Part shown: piece after piece, positions 50,416 to 62,611 of the stretch | Layout of the letters: every line of letters begins with the position of its first letter | Position numbering within the stretch: the first letter of the stretch is position 1 | Source: Granulicella tundricola MP5ACTX9 | GTDB taxonomy: Bacteria; Acidobacteriota; Terriglobia; Terriglobales; Acidobacteriaceae | Direction of reading: 5' to 3' | NCBI RefSeq assembly: GCF_000178975.2 | Contig: NC_015057.1 | Location: 186,001-250,000, forward strand | DNA: 64,000 nucleotides | Made by a program: the position numbers and the translations under genes | The notes under the pieces: generated by a model | Databases searched by the model: none | Told to the model about the DNA's origin: nothing | Seen by the model: the letters and a program-made list of their open reading frames with translations, nothing else

Positions 50416-51060
50416 ATGGCATTGAAGAGCACGAACTCCATGACGGCGCGGGTTGAAGGATCCTTCAAGCAGCTCTCTTCTGCTGCGCAGACACTGCACA
50501 GCGCCACAGACGATTTGAGCAAGGTGATCCGTCAACTGGACGTGAGCCTGAAGAAGCTGGGTCTGGGCTTTCCGGCATGGGTGCAGGTGAGCGGTGAGGC
50601 CGACGAGGTTCAGTACCTGAGCCACGATCTTGGCTATGCGAAGGTGGATGGGAAGTGGGGTCTCGCACTGCGCGAGGTGACCGGCAACCACCTGGATACG
50701 GACGACGACGCGGAAGAGATCTGGGGCTTCAACGATGCGCCGCGTGCGCTGCGCGTGGATGCGGTTGGGAAGATTCCCGACTTGCTCGAAAAGCTGCTGG
50801 CGCAGACGGAAGAGACGACCAAGAAGCTGCAGGCGAAGATTGCCCAAGCTGCCGAGCTGGCGAGCGTGTTCTCCGACCTGACGGGCGGGGTTCCGGCGCT
50901 GCCGCAGTGGAATCGTCATGGGATTGCGTCTGAGAGCGCACGTGAGATTGAGGGCAACGGTGGGGAGAAGCCTGCGGCGGCCTCGTTTCGCGAAGGCGTC
51001 TCGTTCCCGGGCGAAAGGGCGCTCCCGGTCGAAAAGCCGCTCCCGGCGGAACGCAGCTAA
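50416..51060 (+). CDS. Unknown protein with helical core
   Basis: A 214-residue soluble protein that I do not recognise. Residues about 10-50 and 120-165 are strongly helical and may pair as coiled coils (FKQLSSAAQTLHSATDDLSK; LLEKLLAQTEETTKKLQAK). Between them lies an alpha/beta segment with LGYAKVDGKWGLALREV and an acidic stretch of Asp and Glu. The C-terminal 40 residues are Glu/Pro/Ala-rich. The next unknown gene follows on the same strand, probably co-transcribed. No signal peptide or membrane helix is present. Confidence 0.65.
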   Translation: MALKSTNSMTARVEGSFKQLSSAAQTLHSATDDLSKVIRQLDVSLKKLGLGFPAWVQVSGEADEVQYLSHDLGYAKVDGKWGLALREVTGNHLDTDDDAEEIWGFNDAPRALRVDAVGKIPDLLEKLLAQTEETTKKLQAKIAQAAELASVFSDLTGGVPALPQWNRHGIASESAREIEGNGGEKPAAASFREGVSFPGERALPVEKPLPAERS

Positions 51061-51106
51061 GGATCACGAGCAGGAGATTCTGGATCACGACGCGCTGCTC
51101 CGGGCG

Positions 51107-52399
51107 ATGCTCTACGAGCCTTTCCCGGGGGGCGCGGCGGTGGTGCTGACTCAGCTTGGACTGCTGGAAGAGGGACAGGCCGAAGGGCTTGGGGTCCGAA
51201 CTTTTGATGCTGAGAGTGGCCGTTTGTCGCTGGCGATGGACGACGGGCGCGTGATAGAACTCGTGCGTGCGACCCATGCGCGGATTGAAAACCGGTACGC
51301 GGTGCTGGTGCGTGCGGGCGGACTTGCGGAGGATCGCGGGTTCATACAGATCGACCGGAATTTTGGAGTTACGGATTTGCTGAAGCATCAGGTTGTGTAT
51401 CCGGAGACCGCGCACGACGAGCCCGTCTCTCACGTCTCCGAGGATGAGATGGTGGATGCTCCCTCGGATGAGGTTGTGGACGACGAGACGACCAGGATTC
51501 ATGAGGTGAAGAGGCCCGTGGAGACTCAGGTTACGGCTTCAGACGAGATTGAAGCTTCAGGGGACGACAAGGCTGACGCTATCGTGGCTGAAGCGGCTGA
51601 GGCAGAGGTGGAGCCGTTGGCTGAGGTGGAAGAGGCCAGGATTGAGGATTGGGATTGGGCTGAGCCTGTCAGGCCTTTCGAGCCTGTAGATGAGGCGAAG
51701 GCTGTATGGATCGAGCCCGTCTTCGAGGTTGTGCCGGACGTTGAGGCTGGGCGTGTTTCGCAGGTCGAAGCAGAGGTTGAGAGTGTTCCTGTTGTCGTGA
51801 CGGAGGCTGAAGATCTGCCGAACGTCGAGACGGAGGCGCTGGCGGTAGCCGAGGCTGAGTTGGAAGACGAGTCAGTGGCTGCGGCTCCCGAGGTTCATGC
51901 GGAGGACGAGGCTGATGCGGCTCGGATGAGGTACTACCGTCCGTTGGTGGAAGCGTTTGAGCCGGATGTGGTGGTGATGTTTGGGTGGATTGCGGAGACG
52001 GGGACGATCCAGACGTACGAGCACCGGGCGACGGGACGGTACATGCATATCGATGGGGCGAGCGGGCTGTTTTACGACCAGACCCGTACGCCGATCAGCC
52101 AGGCGGCTGCGCTGCGGCATGCGATGCCCACGGACTCTGTCCGGGAGCGGGCGAAGGCTGCTTTCTTTGAGGAGCCTCCTATTGAGGAGACTCCTGAGGC
52201 ACCGGCTATGCTGGCTACGCGGCAGAGTGTCAGGGTGAGTGACGAGGCTCCGCATGGCGATGAGCTTGGGCTGGATACGTTTGTGCGGAAGGATGCAAAC
52301 GGTGGCGAACCGAACGAGCGGGAGAGCTGGCGGAAACGGATTGCGGGACTGGGTAGGACGTTTCGGCTGGGGAAGAATATGGGGCGGGGCGAGGAGTAG
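51107..52399 (+). CDS. Unknown acidic protein with long Glu/Val/Ala repeat-like region
   Basis: A protein of about 430 residues that I do not recognise. Residues about 1-100 form a compact domain (VVLTQLGLLEEGQAEGLGVR, then IENRYAVLVRAGGLAEDRGF). Residues about 115-275 are low-complexity and acidic (E, V, A, D). Residues about 280-345 form a second domain (YYRPLVEAFEPDVVVMFGWI, then RYMHIDGASGLFYDQ). A basic tail ends the protein. The start is uncertain: the frame is open back to 50918, overlapping the previous gene, and ATG 51107 lacks a strong ribosome-binding site. It is convergent with the kinase operon. Confidence 0.55.
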   Translation: MLYEPFPGGAAVVLTQLGLLEEGQAEGLGVRTFDAESGRLSLAMDDGRVIELVRATHARIENRYAVLVRAGGLAEDRGFIQIDRNFGVTDLLKHQVVYPETAHDEPVSHVSEDEMVDAPSDEVVDDETTRIHEVKRPVETQVTASDEIEASGDDKADAIVAEAAEAEVEPLAEVEEARIEDWDWAEPVRPFEPVDEAKAVWIEPVFEVVPDVEAGRVSQVEAEVESVPVVVTEAEDLPNVETEALAVAEAELEDESVAAAPEVHAEDEADAARMRYYRPLVEAFEPDVVVMFGWIAETGTIQTYEHRATGRYMHIDGASGLFYDQTRTPISQAAALRHAMPTDSVRERAKAAFFEEPPIEETPEAPAMLATRQSVRVSDEAPHGDELGLDTFVRKDANGGEPNERESWRKRIAGLGRTFRLGKNMGRGEE

Positions 52400-52484: not shown

Positions 52485-54128
52485 TTAGAAGACTTCCAAG
52501 CTTTGGGTCAGCCAGGTGTGGGCTGCTTTGGATTGAGCTTTGAGGAATTGGGCGTGGGTGGCGGTGAGCTGGGCCAGGGCCAGGGTAGCGGTGGGTGGGA
52601 TGACAAGGGCGACGATCAGGAGGGATTCCGCAGCGAGGACGCGGCTTTTCTGTGTCTGGAGCTCCATGCGCGGGCGGAGTTGGAGTAAGAGGGAGCGGGC
52701 GGCGAAGTAGGTGGCGAGCGCGCTGAGGGGGATGAGGATGAAGGCGGGGATGGCCGGAGGGCGGATGATTGCGGCGAGGGTGTAGAGGGCCAGGCAGAGA
52801 TCGATGAAGGCCCTGATGAGACGGAAGCGGCGGAGGTTGAGGAGCAGGCCGAAGAGGGCTGCAAGAAGGCACGCGGCGGCGGCGAAGTCCAGGAGCAGGT
52901 TTGCGAGGAGGTTGAAGGCGAGCCATAGGGTGACTGCGGCCGAGACGATGGAGGCGAAGACAATAGACAAACCGATGCGCCGGGTAGAGCGGGGTTGGGG
53001 CGGGGGTAGCGTTGGCCTGGTGATGGGGATTGGGGGACGGGTTCTTTTGGGAACGGTGGGGGTGAAGGTGTTGGGGCGGAGGGGGGTTTGGGTGGGGCTC
53101 TTTGAGACTGGCTTGAGAGTGGGATAAGGGTCCAGGCCTCTGAGGAGGATGGTGCGAGCGCACCAGGGGCAGGCTTTGAGGTGAGGGGAGAACTCATGGC
53201 GCGGGTTGACGGTGCAGGTGCTTAGGGATTGGCCGAGGTCGCGGAGGGCCTGCTGCCATTCTTTGGGCGCTGGGCGGGAGGCTGGGTGGGTGTGGCCCTG
53301 GATGAAGGCTCGGAAGAAGAGGCCCTGAAGGGTGGGCGGGAGCATGTCAAAGGGCGGCGCGGAGGGCATGGGGAGGATGCGTTGGTCGATGGTGGGGGCG
53401 TAGGGATAGTCGTTGTTGGCGATGCGGAGGTGGAGGGATGGAGCCTCGCCGCGGGCCTGCCAGATGCCGGAGTATGGGTGGACGCCTTCCATGACGAGGA
53501 GGAAGATGAGGACGGCGAGGGCGAAGTCGTCGTGCGCGGGGGCGCGGTCGACGCGGGTGAGGTCGAGGCCGTGGAGTTCGGGGGCGAGGTACTCGGGTTT
53601 GGCGACGGTGCAGCGGAAGGGGCCGGCTTGCATGGAGTCACAGTCGACTAGGGTGACGAGAGCTTGATCGGAGACGAAGAAGTTGCTTTCGTTGATGTCG
53701 CCGATGACGTAATGGGCGGCGTGGAGGGAGTCTACGACGGAGGCTATGTTTTCAGCGGTGCGGAGGAGATAGGACCAGGTGAAGTTGGGGGCTTCGAGGG
53801 TTCGGCTGGCGGGGTTGTAGAGCTTGAAGAGCTCGCGGTTGCGGGAGAGATCGAGGCGCGGCATGGTGAAGCCGATGCCCTGCCCTGCTGCGTTGAAGAG
53901 GACATCCTGGGGCCAGCAGATGGAGACGTGGCCGGCGGATCGCATGGGATCGTGCGGAGGATGGGCGAGCATGGCGCGGAGCTTTTCGAGCCGCTCGGGC
54001 GTGGGATGGGAGTAGATTTTGGCGGCGGTGCGGGGGTGGCCTTTGAGGGCGTGGATGGTGGCTTCGCCGCCTTTGCCGATGGGCTCGGCGAGGGTGATAA
54101 GATCTCCGGCCTGGGTGCGGAGGATCAT
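52485..54128 (-). CDS. Membrane-bound protein kinase of a TerY-P-like triad
   Basis: A 547-residue protein. The N-terminal kinase fold (about 10-290) has a Gly-rich loop GKGGEA (18-23), Lys37, catalytic Asp144 in IGDINESN and an Asp-Cys-Asp motif (162-164) in place of DFG. A putative zinc site follows, including CPWC. After a Pro/Thr-rich linker come about five hydrophobic segments (about 385-520). Kinases of this sort occur with a vWA protein and a PP2C phosphatase in the TerY-P triads known from comparative genomics, as here. The ATG overlaps the phosphatase stop by four bases. Substrate unknown. Confidence 0.8.
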   Translation of the reverse strand: MILRTQAGDLITLAEPIGKGGEATIHALKGHPRTAAKIYSHPTPERLEKLRAMLAHPPHDPMRSAGHVSICWPQDVLFNAAGQGIGFTMPRLDLSRNRELFKLYNPASRTLEAPNFTWSYLLRTAENIASVVDSLHAAHYVIGDINESNFFVSDQALVTLVDCDSMQAGPFRCTVAKPEYLAPELHGLDLTRVDRAPAHDDFALAVLIFLLVMEGVHPYSGIWQARGEAPSLHLRIANNDYPYAPTIDQRILPMPSAPPFDMLPPTLQGLFFRAFIQGHTHPASRPAPKEWQQALRDLGQSLSTCTVNPRHEFSPHLKACPWCARTILLRGLDPYPTLKPVSKSPTQTPLRPNTFTPTVPKRTRPPIPITRPTLPPPQPRSTRRIGLSIVFASIVSAAVTLWLAFNLLANLLLDFAAAACLLAALFGLLLNLRRFRLIRAFIDLCLALYTLAAIIRPPAIPAFILIPLSALATYFAARSLLLQLRPRMELQTQKSRVLAAESLLIVALVIPPTATLALAQLTATHAQFLKAQSKAAHTWLTQSLEVF

Positions 54129-55096
54129 GGACGACGCTTTCGGGATTTGGTGGATTGCTTAGACTTTTTCTTTGTGAACTGCTGCGCGGCGGGCGAGGGC
54201 TTGTTCCAGGAGCTGGAGAGTGGTTCTGGGGCGGGTGTTGGGGTGGCGGTGGGAGCAGGTTGGGGAGTGGGCTTTTGTGGTGCTGCTATGGGAGTGGCTG
54301 GTTCGGATGCGGGCGGTTCTGGGGTGGCTGGCTCACTTGCTGCTGGTTCGCGGACGGCGAGGATGAGGGTCTTGTCATCGTCTGTGAGGGCATTGACGCG
54401 GGCGGAGGTGAGGATGGCCTCGAGTTCCTGGACGGCTTGATTGTGGGTGGCTTCGGGGGCGGCGACGTAGTCGAAGAGGGGGTGGAAGAAGGCGGGGTGG
54501 GCGGTGTTGGTGGCGTGATGGAGGGCGAGGACCTCGACTCCGTCTGTGAAGAGGGCGAGGGCGGCGATGCCTGAGGCGGGGAGGATGGTGAGGACGGCGG
54601 CCTGGAGGTAGTTGTCGCCGGTGAGAAAGTCGGTCTCGTTGATGTACTCGGAGAGCCTGGGGTGGGAGAGGACGTGGAGGTCGCCGGTGGGGCTGCGGGA
54701 GACGATGGCGCCATCGCCAAGCTGGATGAGGGCGATGTGGTCCGGGGTGAGGATCGCGACGAGGAGGGTGGTGGCGAGATCGCGGAGGGGCTTGGTTTTG
54801 GCCAGGGTTTGGAGGGACTTGCGGGCGTGGGTGAGGGTCTGGGTGAGGAGGGTTCGCCAGGCGGCCTCAGTTTGAGGGATTGTGGTGAGTTGCGTGGTGA
54901 GGTGGTGGATGGCGGCTCGGACGGCGGTGGTGGAGCCTTCACGGGCGCGGAGGGCGGAGCCGGCACCATCGGCTACGGCGAGGAGGGTGATGGCGTTGGG
55001 GAGGGTCGCCTCTGCCTGGGCGTCCTGGCAGAGGAGGCCCGACTGCTGGTGGCTGGAGCCGGTGATGGATGCGGCGAGGACGCGCCAGGTCTGCAT
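54125..55096 (-). CDS. PP2C-family protein phosphatase of the triad
   Basis: A 323-residue protein with the metal-dependent phosphatase motifs in order: CQDAQ (Asp25), VADGAGS (about 41-47), LIQLGDGAIV, LFTDGVE and the final TDDDKTL. All metal-ligand Asp positions are present, so it is probably active. From about residue 255 a Pro/Ala/Glu-rich linker leads to a basic Lys/Ser/Arg tail. It lies six bases after the vWA gene and overlaps the kinase gene by four bases, consistent with an operon in which kinase and phosphatase act on the same target, possibly the vWA protein. Confidence 0.88.
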   Translation of the reverse strand: MQTWRVLAASITGSSHQQSGLLCQDAQAEATLPNAITLLAVADGAGSALRAREGSTTAVRAAIHHLTTQLTTIPQTEAAWRTLLTQTLTHARKSLQTLAKTKPLRDLATTLLVAILTPDHIALIQLGDGAIVSRSPTGDLHVLSHPRLSEYINETDFLTGDNYLQAAVLTILPASGIAALALFTDGVEVLALHHATNTAHPAFFHPLFDYVAAPEATHNQAVQELEAILTSARVNALTDDDKTLILAVREPAASEPATPEPPASEPATPIAAPQKPTPQPAPTATPTPAPEPLSSSWNKPSPAAQQFTKKKSKQSTKSRKRRP

Positions 55097-55102
55097 GGAG
55101 GG

Positions 55103-55744
55103 CTAGGCGGGTGAGCCGAAGGTGACGGCGGGGAGCGCGGTCTGCTCGTCGGCCTTGCTGCGGGAGATGCCTTTCTGGCTGGCGGAGACCCAGAGGAAGA
55201 GCTCGCGGAAGGAGAGCCCGTCGAGCTTGAGGACGCGATCCGTGATGGCTTTGAGGGTGTCCATGTCTGCGTCGCCTACGCCTACGGCGAAGAAGGTGAG
55301 GCCGCGTGCGGCGGTCTCGCGGCGGACTACGGCGGCGGCTTGCAGCCACTCGTCCGTGGGGGTGCCGTCTGTGATGAGGAAGACCCAGGGCTGGTAGTAG
55401 GAGAGGCCGGCTGCCTTGTACTCGGCTTTGCGGATGTTGATCATGCGGACACCTTCGTACATGGCTTCGCCCATGGGGGTGCCACCGCCGGTGGTGAGGA
55501 CGGGGGCCTGGAAGGCGCCGGCGGAGACCCAGGGCTGGATCTGGCGGGTGATGCCGCCAAAGGTGATGATGGCGATCTCTACGCGGCGGCGGGCGAGGGC
55601 GTCATCCTGGATGTCGTGCTCGAAGGAGCGGAGGCCTTCGTTGAGGGCGTCGATGGGCGCGCCCTTCATGGAGCCGGAGGTATCGAGGAGGAAGATGCAG
55701 GCGCAGCGGGGATCAGGGTTGGTGGCGAATTCCAGGTTGAGCAT
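55103..55744 (-). CDS. vWA-domain protein, TerY-like
   Basis: A 213-residue von Willebrand A protein with a complete metal-ion-dependent adhesion site: DTSGSMKG (Asp21, Ser23, Ser25), the Thr in TTGGGTPMGEAM and the Asp in LITDGTPTDEW. Length and layout match TerY. ATG 55744 is chosen because the longer frame (to 55801) adds a Pro/Gln-rich stretch with no ribosome-binding site; an AGGAG lies about 13 bases upstream of 55744. It is the first gene of the vWA-PP2C-kinase operon. No terB, terC, terD or terE gene is seen nearby. Confidence 0.88.
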   Translation of the reverse strand: MLNLEFATNPDPRCACIFLLDTSGSMKGAPIDALNEGLRSFEHDIQDDALARRRVEIAIITFGGITRQIQPWVSAGAFQAPVLTTGGGTPMGEAMYEGVRMINIRKAEYKAAGLSYYQPWVFLITDGTPTDEWLQAAAVVRRETAARGLTFFAVGVGDADMDTLKAITDRVLKLDGLSFRELFLWVSASQKGISRSKADEQTALPAVTFGSPA

Positions 55745-55873
55745 GGGCGTGCGAGGCTCCTCTTGTGTCTCTTGTGGAGGATATCTCTGGACAGGAGGCA
55801 TGGGAAGAACGTTTTGAGGTTCGGAGGGTAAGGTTACCGCTGAGTGGCAGCGGGGTTACTGCGATTGGTGGAG

Positions 55874-56173
55874 CTACGTTCTCTGCTTAGACTCGACGAT
55901 GGCAACGCGCTCGTGGAGATCGGTCATGTTGCGGAGGATCGCCAACTTACGGTTGTGCAAGGCTTCAAAGACTTCGTCAAAACGGCGGTCGACAGAATCA
56001 AAACGCGCCTCAATACTCTCAGGCATGACGTCAGTATGTTCGTCTACAGTCTTTGCGCGCTGGTTGAGGACTACATCACGCCTGCTGCCGACGATCATGG
56101 ACAACACGATGAGAGCACTAGGGATGCCGATGGAAAGCAGCAGTTGGATGTTCGTTACGATAGTCCCCTCCAC
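55874..56173 (-). CDS. Small membrane-anchored coiled-coil protein
   Basis: A 99-residue protein with one N-terminal membrane helix (LLLSIGIPSALIVLSMIVG, about 11-29) followed by a charged helical stretch (ARFDSVDRRFDEVFEALHN, then LAILRNMTDLHERVAIVESK) that should form a coiled coil. Similar short proteins are common and mostly unassigned. It lies 129 bases upstream of the triad on the same strand and might belong to it; nothing proves this. Confidence 0.65.
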   Translation of the reverse strand: MEGTIVTNIQLLLSIGIPSALIVLSMIVGSRRDVVLNQRAKTVDEHTDVMPESIEARFDSVDRRFDEVFEALHNRKLAILRNMTDLHERVAIVESKQRT

Positions 56174-56200: not shown

Positions 56201-57649
56201 TTACCAGGTGTAGTGGACGGTGTAGGTGTAGGTGGTTTGTCCCTTTGCGGGAACCTGGAGGGGGATCTCGATGGTGTTGCTGTCGCGCTTTTTGGAGTCG
56301 GTGGATTGTTCGGCGATCTTCCAGTTTTCGCCGCGGTTGAGGTGCTCGATGACCGTGACTGAGGCGGTGGAGGGCTTTTGGTTTTTGAGGGTGATGGAGT
56401 AGGTTTCGTCGAGGGTGTGGGCGCGGGTGTCGGAGTGGAAGTCGGTCTGGTGGCGCTCTCCGGTGATGTCGAAGGCGTTGCCTACGGCGAGCTTGATGGT
56501 CTCTTCCGTGGGGGTGTGGCCGATCTGGGTTTCTCCGACGAACTCAAGCTGGCCGCCGGCGCTGCGGCGATAGAGGCGGATACGGCCTGCAGGCATGGGG
56601 ATGCCGAGGTGGTTAGCGGTTGAGTTCTTGAACTCCTCGCGGACGGAGACCTTGGTGTTGCTGCCGGTGTTGAAGGTGCGCTGGTAGTTGGGGTTGCCGG
56701 GATAGAACGGGGAGAAGCCTGCGCCGTCGTACTCGTAGACGCGGGACATGGTGACGTCCGTGGCGTTGAGGAACTCGACCTGCTTGGTCTCTCCGTCGCG
56801 GAGGGTGACGGAGCGGTTGAGATCGTAGAGGTGGAAGTCATCAAAGGCTTGCTGGGTGACCTGGGGAGCCGGCGCGGAGCCGGCCATCGCGCGCATCTCG
56901 TACATGGCGCGGCCGTTGACCGGTAGTTGCTGGAGCTTGGCGACGTCTCCGGCCATGAGCTTGATGTGGGCGTCTGCGAACTCTGTGCCGGTGTTGTTGT
57001 GGATGGTGACGGCTCCGACGACCTCGCCGCGCTCCGTGGGGCCTACGTCCCTGGTTTCAGGGGCGATGACGTTGTAGGTGCTCTGCCAGCTCATGCCGTG
57101 GGTGATGTAGGCGAGTTCTGCGTCGAGGCGGGCGGCGTGGGGGGAGTAGATTTGCCAACGGAGGGTGGGTTTGAGGAGGAGGCCGTCTGTTGAGGCGGGA
57201 AAGAGGGGGGTGCCGGGGAGCAGGAACTGGAGGTGGCCGCCGGAGTTGATGAGGGGCTGCTCTCCATTGCGGCCGGCGCGGATGATGGTGCCCTGAACAG
57301 TGGGGAGTGGGGCTCCGTTGGGTCCCGGACCTGGCTGGAAGTCGATGGTCTTGCCTTCGAACTTCTCGAGGAGGGAGTCCTGGTTGATGACGCCGGCGTC
57401 GTAGTTCTGTTCTGCGATGGTGAAGGAGAGTTTTGAGGCGGGGTCGCGGAGGACTACGGAGTCTGGCTCGAGGGAGCGGGTGACGTTGGTGGTGGTGACC
57501 TCCGTGGGGCCTTCTTTGAGGTCGAGCGGGACGTGGGAGCGGACTACGGCGAAGTCCTGGTTGTAGATGGTGAGGGAGGTCTGGGCGGATTGTTGGGCGA
57601 GAGCAGGCGAGGCGATGAGGAAGGCGGCGAGGATCGGAGTGTGTTTCAT
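56201..57649 (-). CDS. Secreted DUF4139 domain protein
   Basis: A 482-residue protein with a signal peptide (about 5-18, cleavage near ALAQQ) and the DUF4139 architecture. An N-terminal beta region (LTIYNQDFAVVRSHVPLDL) precedes TLRWQIYSPHAARLDAELAY and YITHGMSWQSTYNVI, the most conserved part. The C-terminal beta domain has KVSVREEFKNSTANHLGIPM and ETYSITLKNQKP. Function is unknown. It lies on the same strand as the ARPP-1 gene but 500 bases downstream of it. Confidence 0.85.
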   Translation of the reverse strand: MKHTPILAAFLIASPALAQQSAQTSLTIYNQDFAVVRSHVPLDLKEGPTEVTTTNVTRSLEPDSVVLRDPASKLSFTIAEQNYDAGVINQDSLLEKFEGKTIDFQPGPGPNGAPLPTVQGTIIRAGRNGEQPLINSGGHLQFLLPGTPLFPASTDGLLLKPTLRWQIYSPHAARLDAELAYITHGMSWQSTYNVIAPETRDVGPTERGEVVGAVTIHNNTGTEFADAHIKLMAGDVAKLQQLPVNGRAMYEMRAMAGSAPAPQVTQQAFDDFHLYDLNRSVTLRDGETKQVEFLNATDVTMSRVYEYDGAGFSPFYPGNPNYQRTFNTGSNTKVSVREEFKNSTANHLGIPMPAGRIRLYRRSAGGQLEFVGETQIGHTPTEETIKLAVGNAFDITGERHQTDFHSDTRAHTLDETYSITLKNQKPSTASVTVIEHLNRGENWKIAEQSTDSKKRDSNTIEIPLQVPAKGQTTYTYTVHYTW

Positions 57650-58151: not shown

Positions 58152-59363
58152 TTAGTACATGAGGGCGGGGCGGTGGTCTGTGGAGTTTTTGAGTTTGAGG
58201 CGGCTGATGTGGACTTCCTGCGGGGTGTTGGGGAGGAGGGATTCGAGGTCGAACTGGTCTGTGGGGCCGGTGCGGATCTCGCTGTAGCGGTAGACACCGG
58301 CTTCGCCTTCGGAGTTCTCTGCTCCATGCATGGGGCGGCTGAGGAAGTGCTGGGCGTCTTCGAGGGTGGCTGCGGTTTGGTGGTCGGAGGCGGACGTGGT
58401 GAGGCCTTCGGCGGCGTAGGAGCGGATGAGCTTGGTCCAGTAACGGGTGAGGAGGTCTGTGTTGGAGAAGAGGTCTGCCCAGATGATGTCTCCGTGGACG
58501 GCTACGACGACACCGATGGCATGCTGCTGGCGGAGGGTGGCGAGGATCTGCTCGCGGGAGTGGGCGAGGTTGGACGAGGCTTCGTCTACCTTTGCGCTGA
58601 CGGCTACGGACTGGAGGGCCTTGGCATAACTGGTGGTGGCGAGGGGTTGAACGTTGACGTCAGGGCGGAGGATGGTTACCTGTCCGTGGATGGCGCCAGC
58701 GGATGGAGCAGGCGGTGCGGCGGCCATGGCGGTGATGGAGTTGCTGACGGAGTTCCAGACCTGTTGCTGATCGCGTGCGACCATGGCCTGCTGGCGGACG
58801 GCGGGCTGGACCATGAAGGATTGGGCGGGGCTGTTGGCGGTGGTGCCGAACTTGTCTGAGGATTCTGTCCAGCGGCCGTGCTCGATGCAGAAGACGGAGA
58901 GGTCAATGGGGTCTGCGCCGATGGGGACGATGCGGTCTTTGGCGATGATGCGGTCCTGCTTGCCGCCGGTGACGATCTCTCCGGCGAGGAGAAGCAAAGG
59001 GCGCTGGGAGTGATTGACGAGGACGAGGGTGTTGACCTGGTCGCCGCGGTATTCGGGCTGGGCGATGGCGGGGTGCGCCCCGGAGCGGGAGCGGACGAGG
59101 CCGTGGACTCGACCGGCTTCTGTGACTTCTACCTCGCCGCTGCGGAGACCTTCGTCGAGGGTGAGGAAGGGATCGTCAGGAGAGGCTTTGGCGTTGGTGA
59201 GGACTACGGGAAAGAGGGTGAGATCGCCGGATTCGATTGGCTTGAGGATCTTGTAGGTGAACTCGGATGAGATGGGGCCGGCGTGGACCGGGGAGAGGAG
59301 GCCGGTGGCCAGGATCAAGGCGAGAGGGATGGATAACAGACTGACAGCACGCGGGTTCGTCAT
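58152..59363 (-). CDS. Secreted ARPP-1-type domain protein
   Basis: A 403-residue protein with a signal peptide (about 10-28, ending VHAG). A domain of the ARPP-1 type follows: FTYKILKPIESGDLTLFPVV, VNTLVLVNHSQRPLLLLAGE, IVTGGKQDRIIAKDRIVPIG and LSVFCIEHGRW. The middle (about 190-260) is Gln/Ala/Ser-rich. The family name comes from gene association and its activity is unknown. It is transcribed away from the ECF sigma factor gene, 194 bases from it. Confidence 0.8.
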   Translation of the reverse strand: MTNPRAVSLLSIPLALILATGLLSPVHAGPISSEFTYKILKPIESGDLTLFPVVLTNAKASPDDPFLTLDEGLRSGEVEVTEAGRVHGLVRSRSGAHPAIAQPEYRGDQVNTLVLVNHSQRPLLLLAGEIVTGGKQDRIIAKDRIVPIGADPIDLSVFCIEHGRWTESSDKFGTTANSPAQSFMVQPAVRQQAMVARDQQQVWNSVSNSITAMAAAPPAPSAGAIHGQVTILRPDVNVQPLATTSYAKALQSVAVSAKVDEASSNLAHSREQILATLRQQHAIGVVVAVHGDIIWADLFSNTDLLTRYWTKLIRSYAAEGLTTSASDHQTAATLEDAQHFLSRPMHGAENSEGEAGVYRYSEIRTGPTDQFDLESLLPNTPQEVHISRLKLKNSTDHRPALMY

Positions 59364-61582: not shown

Positions 61583-62611
61583 TCAGGCTGTGGTGGTTTC
61601 GCCTAGCCACTTTGGGTTCTGGGCTGTGCCGTCGAAGTGGGCGGAGGTCTTGAAGAGCTCGTACTTGCCCTGGGATGCGGCTTCTTTGGTTCGGGCGAGG
61701 AGGGATTGGACCTCAGCCTGCGACATGGGCTTGAAGGTGCGGGCGGCTTCAAGGGCCTGGTCCAGGACCTGCTGGTTATCGATGCCGGTGATGAGGACGG
61801 AGACGGGTTGGGTGAAGCCGTAGTGGAGGGCTTCCATGGGCTGGACGGTTTTGCTGTCGAGGATGAAGTGATCGCCGAAGGTCTTCATGGCGAGGACGCC
61901 GATTCCCTGCTTGATGGCGACGGGCATGACCTCGTGGGTGAAGGAGCGGAAGTGCGCGTCCATGACGTTGATGGGCATCTGGACGGTGTCGAAGTGGAAG
62001 TTGTGACGCTGCGCGGTTTCAAGCATGCGGAGGTGGACGGCGGGGTCTTTGTGGCCGGTAAAGCCTATGTAGCGGATCTTGCCGGCCTGGCGGGCAGCTA
62101 CGGCGGCTTCAATGGCTCCGCCTGCGGCGAAGATGCGGTCCGGGTCTTCCATGCGGATGATCTCGTGGAACTGGACGAGGTCGATGACGTCTGTCTGGAG
62201 GCGGCCGAGGGATTCTTCTAGTTGCTTGTTGTAGGCGTCCGCGGTGCGGCCGTCCATCTTTGACATGAGGAAGACCTTCTGGCGGTAGCCGGAGGACTTG
62301 AGGGCCTGGCCCATGCGGACCTCGGAGATGCCGTCGTTGTAGTCCCAGCAGTTGTCGAGGAAGGTGATGCCTTTGTCTACACCGGCGTGGATGAGCTTGA
62401 TGCTTTCGGCGGGGTCTTTTTGTTTGCCGAGGTGGAAGCCGCCCATGCCGATGGCGGAGACTGTCTCGCCGGTGGTGCCAAGCTGGCGGTAGATCATGTC
62501 CGGGGACTGGGGGCGGGTGGTTGGGGCTGGGGTCGCTGCGGCGGCGGAAGCTTTTGTGGCTATGGCTGCTGTTGCGGCGGTGGCGGATTTGAGGAAGTCT
62601 CTGCGCTCCAT
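61583..62611 (-). CDS. Tat-exported aldo/keto reductase
   Basis: A 342-residue protein with a twin-arginine signal (RRDFLK at 3-8, then an Ala-rich stretch to about 35) and an aldo/keto reductase barrel: YRQLGTTGETVSAIGMGGFH, GITFLDNCWDYNDG with catalytic Asp and Tyr, VFLMSKMDGR with Lys and VIDLVQFHEI with His. The family reduces carbonyls with NADPH. The four catalytic residues look intact. The Tat signal implies export as a folded protein with bound cofactor. No redox partner gene is adjacent. Confidence 0.9.
   Translation of the reverse strand: MERRDFLKSATAATAAIATKASAAAATPAPTTRPQSPDMIYRQLGTTGETVSAIGMGGFHLGKQKDPAESIKLIHAGVDKGITFLDNCWDYNDGISEVRMGQALKSSGYRQKVFLMSKMDGRTADAYNKQLEESLGRLQTDVIDLVQFHEIIRMEDPDRIFAAGGAIEAAVAARQAGKIRYIGFTGHKDPAVHLRMLETAQRHNFHFDTVQMPINVMDAHFRSFTHEVMPVAIKQGIGVLAMKTFGDHFILDSKTVQPMEALHYGFTQPVSVLITGIDNQQVLDQALEAARTFKPMSQAEVQSLLARTKEAASQGKYELFKTSAHFDGTAQNPKWLGETTTA

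Follow-up and report, generated by a model that had tools for sequence, protein, structure and literature searches.

Positions 52485–55801 of the window, by which we mean the whole 64,000-nucleotide stretch of Granulicella tundricola MP5ACTX9 contig NC_015057.1 that was analyzed, encode on the minus strand a vWA protein, a PP2C phosphatase, and a membrane Ser/Thr-kinase-like protein, as read from the open reading frames (Table 1). This triad is an acidobacterial, distant copy of the already known but poorly understood YegL-PphC-YegI signalling system. It probably forms a self-contained switch based on reversible Ser/Thr phosphorylation, the acidobacterial counterpart of YegL-PphC-YegI. The preliminary description of the locus as a TerY-P-type triad of vWA protein, phosphatase, and membrane kinase is supported. 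The genes overlap or nearly touch, as it had stated: the vWA and PP2C genes are separated by 6 bases, and the PP2C and kinase frames share 4 bases. Signals at the locus are near chance, with one promoter-like site versus 0.4 expected and two terminator-like sites versus 2.1 expected.

Table 1 Coordinates of the triad and of its neighbors in the window
Feature	Position	Strand	Description
vWA protein (YegL/TerY-like)	55103–55801	-	232 aa; Pfam VWA, 52% identity to E. coli YegL
PP2C-type Ser/Thr phosphatase (PphC-like)	54125–55096	-	323 aa; PP2C_2, 37% identity to E. coli PphC
YegI-like eukaryote-type Ser/Thr kinase	52485–54128	-	547 aa; 34% identity to E. coli YegI
Small ORF	55874–56173	-	99 aa; one hydrophobic segment and a coiled-coil-like tail (by eye)
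Two convergent ORFs, 50416–51060 and 50918–52399	50416–52399	+	214 aa and 493 aa, overlapping

The vWA protein matches the Pfam VWA family (E=9e-12) and has an intact MIDAS composed of D40, S42, S44, T108, and D145. Its C-terminus carries the motif W-x-S-x-S-x4-S-x-S, with serines at positions 206, 208, 213, and 215 (S206, S208, S213, S215). The phosphatase matches PP2C_2 (E=1.9e-46) and contains the metal-binding aspartates D25, D43, D128, D185, D240, and D241, followed by a basic, low-complexity, Pro/Ala-rich tail (residues ~251–323). Neither sequence has a match in the PDB at E≤0.01. All 18 aligned triads, that of the window among them, have the same catalytic and metal residues in the three proteins: the MIDAS residues, the PP2C aspartates, and K37, D144, and D162 of the kinase. 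This bears out the earlier claim that the motif sets are intact. The four serines of the vWA tail are also kept in 18/18 triads and, judged from the alignment, are candidate phospho-acceptors.

The kinase is composed of a kinase domain (residues ~1–300), a zinc-type cluster (305–323), a Pro-rich linker (~335–380), and four to five hydrophobic segments within residues 384–523; another hydrophobic segment (198–222) is located inside the kinase core. The zinc site and several membrane helices described previously correspond to this cluster and these segments. The Cys/His cluster, formed by C305, H311, H316, C320, and C323, is seen in the alignment of triads, being absent in locus L014 and altered in L015 and L016. 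The Pfam Pkinase match is weak (E=8e-4, under the Pfam cut-off), and so are the matches of the sequence in the PDB (best E 0.007). The AlphaFold model of the kinase has a protein-kinase fold, its structural matches among PDB entries being protein kinases (best E 8e-10, rmsd 6–8 Å). The canonical catalytic-loop motif of kinases is HRDxK. The corresponding loop here reads GDINESN, without the HRDxK lysine, and because of this departure kinase activity cannot be assumed. The YegI-type GD[IVL]N loop and the downstream Cys/His cluster are both present.

The kinase has 24 residues after its last hydrophobic segment, versus 124–139 in the three closest full-length relatives, and a relaxase-like gene terminates 85 bases from the kinase gene. 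Both observations would fit a degraded kinase, in which the loss of a C-terminal domain had left the switch deaf and the locus decaying. However, the kinase frame is intact and its catalytic residues are kept. The C-terminal modules of YegI-like kinases differ widely among relatives, and short versions occur too. A search near the end of the kinase gene with the last 190 residues of the three relatives gave nothing convincing (best E 0.15), and a split or frameshifted C-terminus was rejected, as no domain remnant was detectable downstream. We consider decay of the locus improbable.

Of 22 further loci that have a TerY-like vWA gene, 19 contain all three genes, a count in which L008, L056, and L057 were chosen via the kinase and the kinase of L013 is cut by a contig end. 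Locus L065 has vWA and PP2C genes with no kinase found, and L070 and L071 have a partial vWA gene only. The order vWA, PP2C, kinase, in which the window genes are adjacent, is shared by 16 of the 19 complete loci, and the order kinase, vWA, PP2C by the remaining 3/19. On plasmids of Deinococcus, Trichormus, Mesorhizobium, and Pseudomonas, too, a vWA gene, a gene annotated as PP2C, and a YegI-like kinase gene follow one another in the order of the window. Frames were called by a script with a greedy longest-ORF rule, so false frames or wrong starts are possible; the kinase starts of L060 and L061 look too far upstream. The 18-row comparisons leave out L008 and L013, which are cut by contig ends, and also L065, L070, and L071, where one or two of the three genes are missing from the sequence read. 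The three proteins show correlated pairwise distances across the 18 triads, including that of the window (r = 0.92, 0.89, and 0.87; observed r reached in 0 of 2000 permutations), a pattern that common descent and a small number of deep clades would also produce.

The survey of conserved neighborhoods proposed in the preliminary description found the triad kept as a unit, whereas its flanking genes are not. The neighbors named there exist (the small frame and the two convergent frames), but no tie to the triad was found. For none of them, nor for 58152–59363, did tblastn (E≤1e-4) find a relative at any other triad locus examined, and these flanking genes were rejected as components of the system. 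The product of 50918–52399 is similar to the C-terminus of TrwC relaxases, and that of 55874–56173 has matches in 4 of 62 genomes of the genus, its own included. Relatives of 56201–57649 occur solely in four stretches fetched for carrying that gene. Of the other window genes, only the aldo-keto-reductase-like 61583–62611 is related to a gene at a triad locus (28%, L013). Clustering of the frames of 22 regions (the window and 21 others) gave, beyond the triad, no family present in more than three loci. Closely linked to the triad are an NAD-kinase gene, seen at three loci that belong to a single family-level group, and families shared by two loci, one pair being the Fibrobacter loci L015 and L016 and the other L059 and L071. 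In an empty-site comparison, L072–L075 carry relatives of the DUF4139 neighbor and share no other tested window gene; no triad-free site is definable from them.

Gene content, order, homology, motif intactness, and the co-variation of the three proteins were obtained directly for the window triad. We propose that the membrane-anchored kinase would autophosphorylate and phosphorylate a partner, and that the PP2C enzyme would strip the phosphates. The metal-binding vWA protein would act as an adaptor, in which phosphorylation switches binding to the kinase, the phosphatase, or a client, most plausibly via the conserved C-terminal serines. The vWA protein would then be a substrate, its metal occupancy may matter, and the biological role may lie in envelope, metal, or phage stress. 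It is possible, though rather doubtful, that the kinase acts directly on the vWA protein, whose W-x-S-x-S-x4-S-x-S tail would be the phospho-switch, that modules at the kinase C-terminus can be exchanged, and that the window kinase is a minimal, membrane-only form with the membrane as sensor. Such modules would range from none through membrane segments with an extra domain to a WD40 propeller, helix-hairpin-helix, or TPR, and would determine the place at which the shared kinase-phosphatase-vWA core is triggered and the signal that does so. The relatives separate constant parts (kinase core, PP2C, and serine-tailed vWA protein) from an exchangeable part (kinase C-terminus), and this split points to the serines of the vWA tail as the concrete first thing to test. 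The triad is scattered across phyla and plasmids and is near-universal in E. coli, yet the literature searched gave no substrate or trigger.

TerY-P-like modules have been reported as stand-alone anti-phage systems in the available text of two sources (PMC11090510, PMC7699616), and the triad could be such a system, in which infection triggers defence via the kinase/phosphatase switch. Its spread is patchy, with strong vWA matches in 4/62 genus genomes and 11/396 phylum genomes, and relatives are also located on plasmids. Moreover, 124 flanking frames from 17 triad loci match 40 PADLOC families (E≤1e-10), including type III CRISPR (Csm3, Cas6, Cas7) and viperin-like models. The control gave 10 families in 126 frames from 9 stretches picked without regard to the triad (L072–L075 and L093–L097), which come from one genus and partly bear relaxases. 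The scans took 124 of 128 flanking frames, dropping two from the window, one from L068, and a very long one from L069. The excess is soft, however: each of the 25 families shown (15 others are not shown) matches one to three frames, and several models hit a single protein, a DprA-like frame of L068 alone yielding three. The CRISPR and viperin-like matches were traced to their loci only in part: ten frames were rescanned, and these matches were in none of them. None of the window triad proteins is listed for the PADLOC TerY model at a maximum E of 10, but HMMER filters drop most weak matches, and the model barely detects E. coli YegL (E=0.032; 7e-4 for a Fibrobacter relative). Near-universal presence in E. 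coli is also unlike typical defence genes. The anti-phage module (Gao et al. 2020, via the available text of PMC11090510 and PMC7699616) has the same protein classes as the window. Nevertheless, the tested anti-phage kinases are said there to carry a C-terminal OB-fold, described as a fusion, unlike the window kinase with its zinc-type cluster and membrane helices. The CoCoNuT-associated TerY-P described in the available part of PMC11090510 resembles the window in having a zinc-binding element after the kinase, but no McrBC, HEPN, or helicase-type family was found in the ten window proteins scanned. We regard an anti-phage function as unlikely.

The classical ter locus itself contains vWA, PP2C, and kinase genes, and the triad could be a switch of that type, responding to stress from metals or tellurite. 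The TerY-P set of a ter plasmid (an IncHI2 example, L111) has, like the window, these genes in one row, and the vWA proteins share a C-terminal W-x-S/T-x-S motif. One Deinococcus relative adjoins StiP-type and phosphoribosyltransferase genes, also present in the ter locus. The plasmid set differs in its number of vWA genes (three, of which one encodes a TerY-C metal-binding domain) and in its interspersed TerD-family genes. Its identity to the window triad is 36, 30, and 26% (vWA, PP2C, and kinase; the last two alignments are partial), clearly below that of YegL-PphC-YegI, and by this sequence measure it is the more distant set. The scan of ten window proteins, those of the triad and of its surroundings, found no Ter family, and TerD is absent from the G. 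tundricola genome. Among 18 genomes with triad genes, 16 of which show the complete triad, TerD is matched in one and found nowhere in the other 17. A classical ter function is thus very improbable. The preliminary description had treated the lack of ter genes as unusual; this is not supported, because the sequence read at the E. coli locus has no annotated ter gene and 17/18 genomes have no TerD match, and a lack of ter genes is ordinary for the YegL-PphC-YegI branch.

The closest characterized relative of the window triad, as judged by sequence, is E. coli yegL-pphC-yegI, which is present in 5,342 of 5,426 E. coli genomes. The three families and the gene order of E. coli YegL-PphC(YegK)-YegI match those of the window, with identities of 52, 37, and 34% over 180, 257, and 328 columns, respectively, the last including CPWC. 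As at the window locus, the 18 kb of E. coli sequence read here has no annotated ter gene. The loci differ in that the opposite-strand yegJ sits between pphC and yegI in E. coli K-12, and in the Pro-rich basic tail of the window PP2C. E. coli YegI shares with the window kinase the hydrophobic segments and the Cys/His cluster. Behind these segments, YegI has a helix-hairpin-helix-like region (HHH_5, E=9e-4, below the Pfam cut-off), whereas the window kinase has no such match and ends after segments 384–523. Because the kinase C-termini vary across relatives, we do not take the helix-hairpin-helix as defining the family. According to the available text of PMC13232886, YegI and PphC are a kinase/phosphatase pair, in which membrane-bound YegI autophosphorylates on serine and is dephosphorylated by PphC. 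The system had been called under-described, which is apt in that the literature searched, as far as its text was available, gave no substrate or stimulus, but less so for the kinase and phosphatase, whose E. coli counterparts are already reported as a pair.

The vWA, PP2C phosphatase, and kinase genes of the triad occupy positions 52485-55801 of the minus strand, with a 6-base gap between the vWA and PP2C genes and a 4-base overlap between the PP2C and kinase genes. The near-touching or overlapping ORFs, the VWA and PP2C_2 matches, and the kinase-like model of the third product confirm the operon postulated in the preliminary description, and the triad consists of genuine genes, not accidental ORFs.

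Triad genes and nearby features in the window
Feature	Position	Strand	Characteristics
vWA gene	55103-55801	-	Pfam VWA, E=9.2e-12; transcribed first of three
PP2C gene	54125-55096	-	Pfam PP2C_2, E=1.9e-46; transcribed second
PP2C tail, residues ~251-323	54125-54350	-	basic, Pro/Ala-rich, low-complexity
Kinase gene	52485-54128	-	weak Pfam match, E=8.2e-4; transcribed third
Overlapping ORF pair	50416-51060 / 50918-52399	+	second product TrwC-relaxase-C-terminus-like
99-aa ORF	55874-56173		
DUF4139 / MuiA-like protein	56201-57649	-	
ARPP-1 domain protein	58152-59363	-	E=1.9e-63; signal-peptide-like start by eye

The AlphaFold model of the kinase, calculated from a five-sequence alignment, has a mean pLDDT of 64 and is confident at approximately residues 1-100, 121-210, and 261-300 and poor outside them. 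Its top PDB structure matches are protein kinases, including LIMK2 (E=7.8e-10) and, at rank 9, PknB (E=2.5e-9), with loose superpositions (rmsd of 6-8 Å). The best match to lanthionine-synthetase models (E=2.4e-7) is far under the cut-offs of those models. Residues K37, D144, and D162 are invariant in all 18 aligned triads. Canonical protein kinases have an HRDLK motif with a lysine in the catalytic loop; the loop of the window kinase is GDINESN, with an asparagine at the position of that lysine. The kinase core is followed by a Cys/His cluster (C305/H311/H316/C320/C323), in which C320 and C323 are near-invariant, and which is missing or changed in comparison loci L014-L016. Hydrophobic segments at residues 384-523 lie beyond the cluster, and the last of them is followed by 24 residues, compared to 124-139 in loci L056, L060, and L061. 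The C-termini of the relatives vary: WD40 in L057 and L063, TPR in L069, and helix-hairpin-helix-like sequences, under the Pfam cut-off, in E. coli (E=9e-4) and L069 (E=1e-5). The WD40-fused kinases are encoded at L057:7704-10265 and L063:10675-13056 in phylum relatives and, by annotation, at L107:10452-12500 in Trichormus. Most aligned relatives of the PP2C stop soon after DDDK.

The MIDAS set of the vWA protein is intact. The only vWA serines invariant across the 18 triads are S42 and S44 of the MIDAS and S206, S208, S213, and S215 of the tail. Because the catalytic and MIDAS residues are invariant and the tail serines conserved, we propose that the kinase and phosphatase act as a pair on the vWA adaptor, with the four tail serines as candidate phosphorylation sites. 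Conservation of the tail serines may equally have a structural cause.

Apart from the window, 22 loci containing a TerY-like vWA were compared, and 19 of them have all three genes; L008, L056, and L057 were chosen by their kinase. In the incomplete loci, L070 and L071 contain only part of the vWA, and in L065 the vWA adjoins the PP2C, but no relative of the kinase could be detected within the 20 kb read. The order is vWA-PP2C-kinase in 16 of the 19 and kinase-vWA-PP2C in a Victivallales and two Fibrobacter loci. The distance matrices of the 18 triads whose sequences were usable, window included, correlate with r of 0.92 (kinase-PP2C), 0.89 (kinase-vWA), and 0.87 (PP2C-vWA), values reached by none of 2000 permutations, and to which common ancestry contributes. 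The neighborhood survey of relatives upheld the triad as a unit but no wider association; ORF clustering across the loci identified no other gene family in more than three. An NAD-kinase-like gene is located directly upstream of the triad, on the opposite strand, in three related genomes (L066:3009-3875, L067:8563-9444, and L068:10047-11042).

Kinase matches occur in 10 of 150 family genomes (seven at E<=7e-41, own included), and vWA matches in five of 62 genus genomes (four strong) and 21 of 396 phylum genomes (11 at E<=3e-25); the weaker ones may represent other vWA proteins. The window's genome has a single match to each. The vWA matches 1,542 of 72,556 plasmid records at E<=1e-20, many of those sampled at ~34-35% identity and of the ter-plasmid type, and three of 50,697 phage records at E<=1e-10. 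Four of five named plasmid regions (Deinococcus, Trichormus, Mesorhizobium, and Pseudomonas) have the vWA-PP2C-kinase order with a YegI-like third gene; the incomplete gene table of the fifth (E. coli) lists a vWA and PP2C without a kinase. Such a patchy distribution is compatible with either horizontal transfer or repeated loss.

A survey for co-occurrence of the flanking genes with the triad had been suggested. On the evidence obtained, the overlapping ORF pair is not a partner: its second product resembles a relaxase, and G154, in which the vWA has no match, also contains the pair, with a 66% relative of the first product beside a match to the second. The second product, which has no Pfam match, aligns with two stretches close to the C-terminus of a TrwC-type relaxase encoded elsewhere in its genome (35% over 123 columns, E=3e-18; 33% over 72); relaxase copies lie at G000 C2 and C3. 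Co-occurrence of the 99-aa ORF with the triad was likewise not borne out: it has matches in four of 62 genus genomes, own included, and in one of them (G167) the two are on separate contigs. The ARPP-1 domain protein is found in two of 62 genus genomes and the DUF4139 / MuiA-like protein in eight of 60, own included in both; the G201 relative of the latter is broken by stops. Elsewhere in the window, flagellar-cluster-like ORFs were recognised by eye at ~7600-41600, and the GC skew is clearly positive from ~44 kb onward.

The triad could be an anti-phage defence system, given that PMC11090510 and PMC7699616 describe phage protection by TerY-P-like modules. However, the anti-phage TerY-P kinases are described there with an OB-fold, and no protein of the window triad is matched by the PADLOC TerY model, although this model scarcely matches YegL either. 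The 124 ORFs flanking 17 triad loci gave matches to 40 PADLOC families at E<=1e-10, among them viperin-like and CRISPR type III models, with one to three ORFs in each of the 25 families listed. In contrast, 126 ORFs from nine stretches chosen without regard to the triad match 10 families (1-6 ORFs each), but one protein can match several models and this control represents a single genus. An ORF downstream of a WD40-kinase triad (L057:4705-5877) gives a hit to the RT-Protease_XI defence model, in its protease portion (E=1e-19). An AbiEii-type gene is near the triad at one Mesorhizobium locus, and StiP-type and phosphoribosyltransferase genes at one Deinococcus locus. The evidence backs no one biological role for the triad.

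In the classical ter locus of an IncHI2 plasmid, three vWA proteins, a PP2C, and a kinase are placed among TerD-family genes. The triad had been described as lacking ter genes, which agrees with the absence of any TerD match from the genome of the window. One of 18 genomes with triad genes, own included, has TerD matches (G254, on contigs other than the triad's); the triad is complete in 16 of them, G265 having no detected kinase and G504 only part of the vWA. The three ter-plasmid vWA proteins have Ser or Thr at the first three of the four tail-serine positions. The IncHI2 proteins are less similar to those of the window (vWA at most 36%, PP2C 30%, kinase 26% over 223 columns) than are E. coli K-12 YegL (52% over 180 columns), PphC (37% over 257), and YegI (34% over 328).

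No ter genes are annotated in the 18 kb read around the E. coli triad locus, at least 80% of which is covered in 5,342 of 5,426 E. coli genomes. The accessible text of the open-licence literature searched gave no substrate or trigger for a YegL-PphC-YegI-type triad. YegI is an inner-membrane-localised kinase without conserved motifs, according to a title cited in PMC13232886. The window triad shares the gene order of yegL-pphC-yegI. K-12 has the opposite-strand yegJ between pphC and yegI, a gene that is absent from E. coli strains outside the K group according to PMC13232886.
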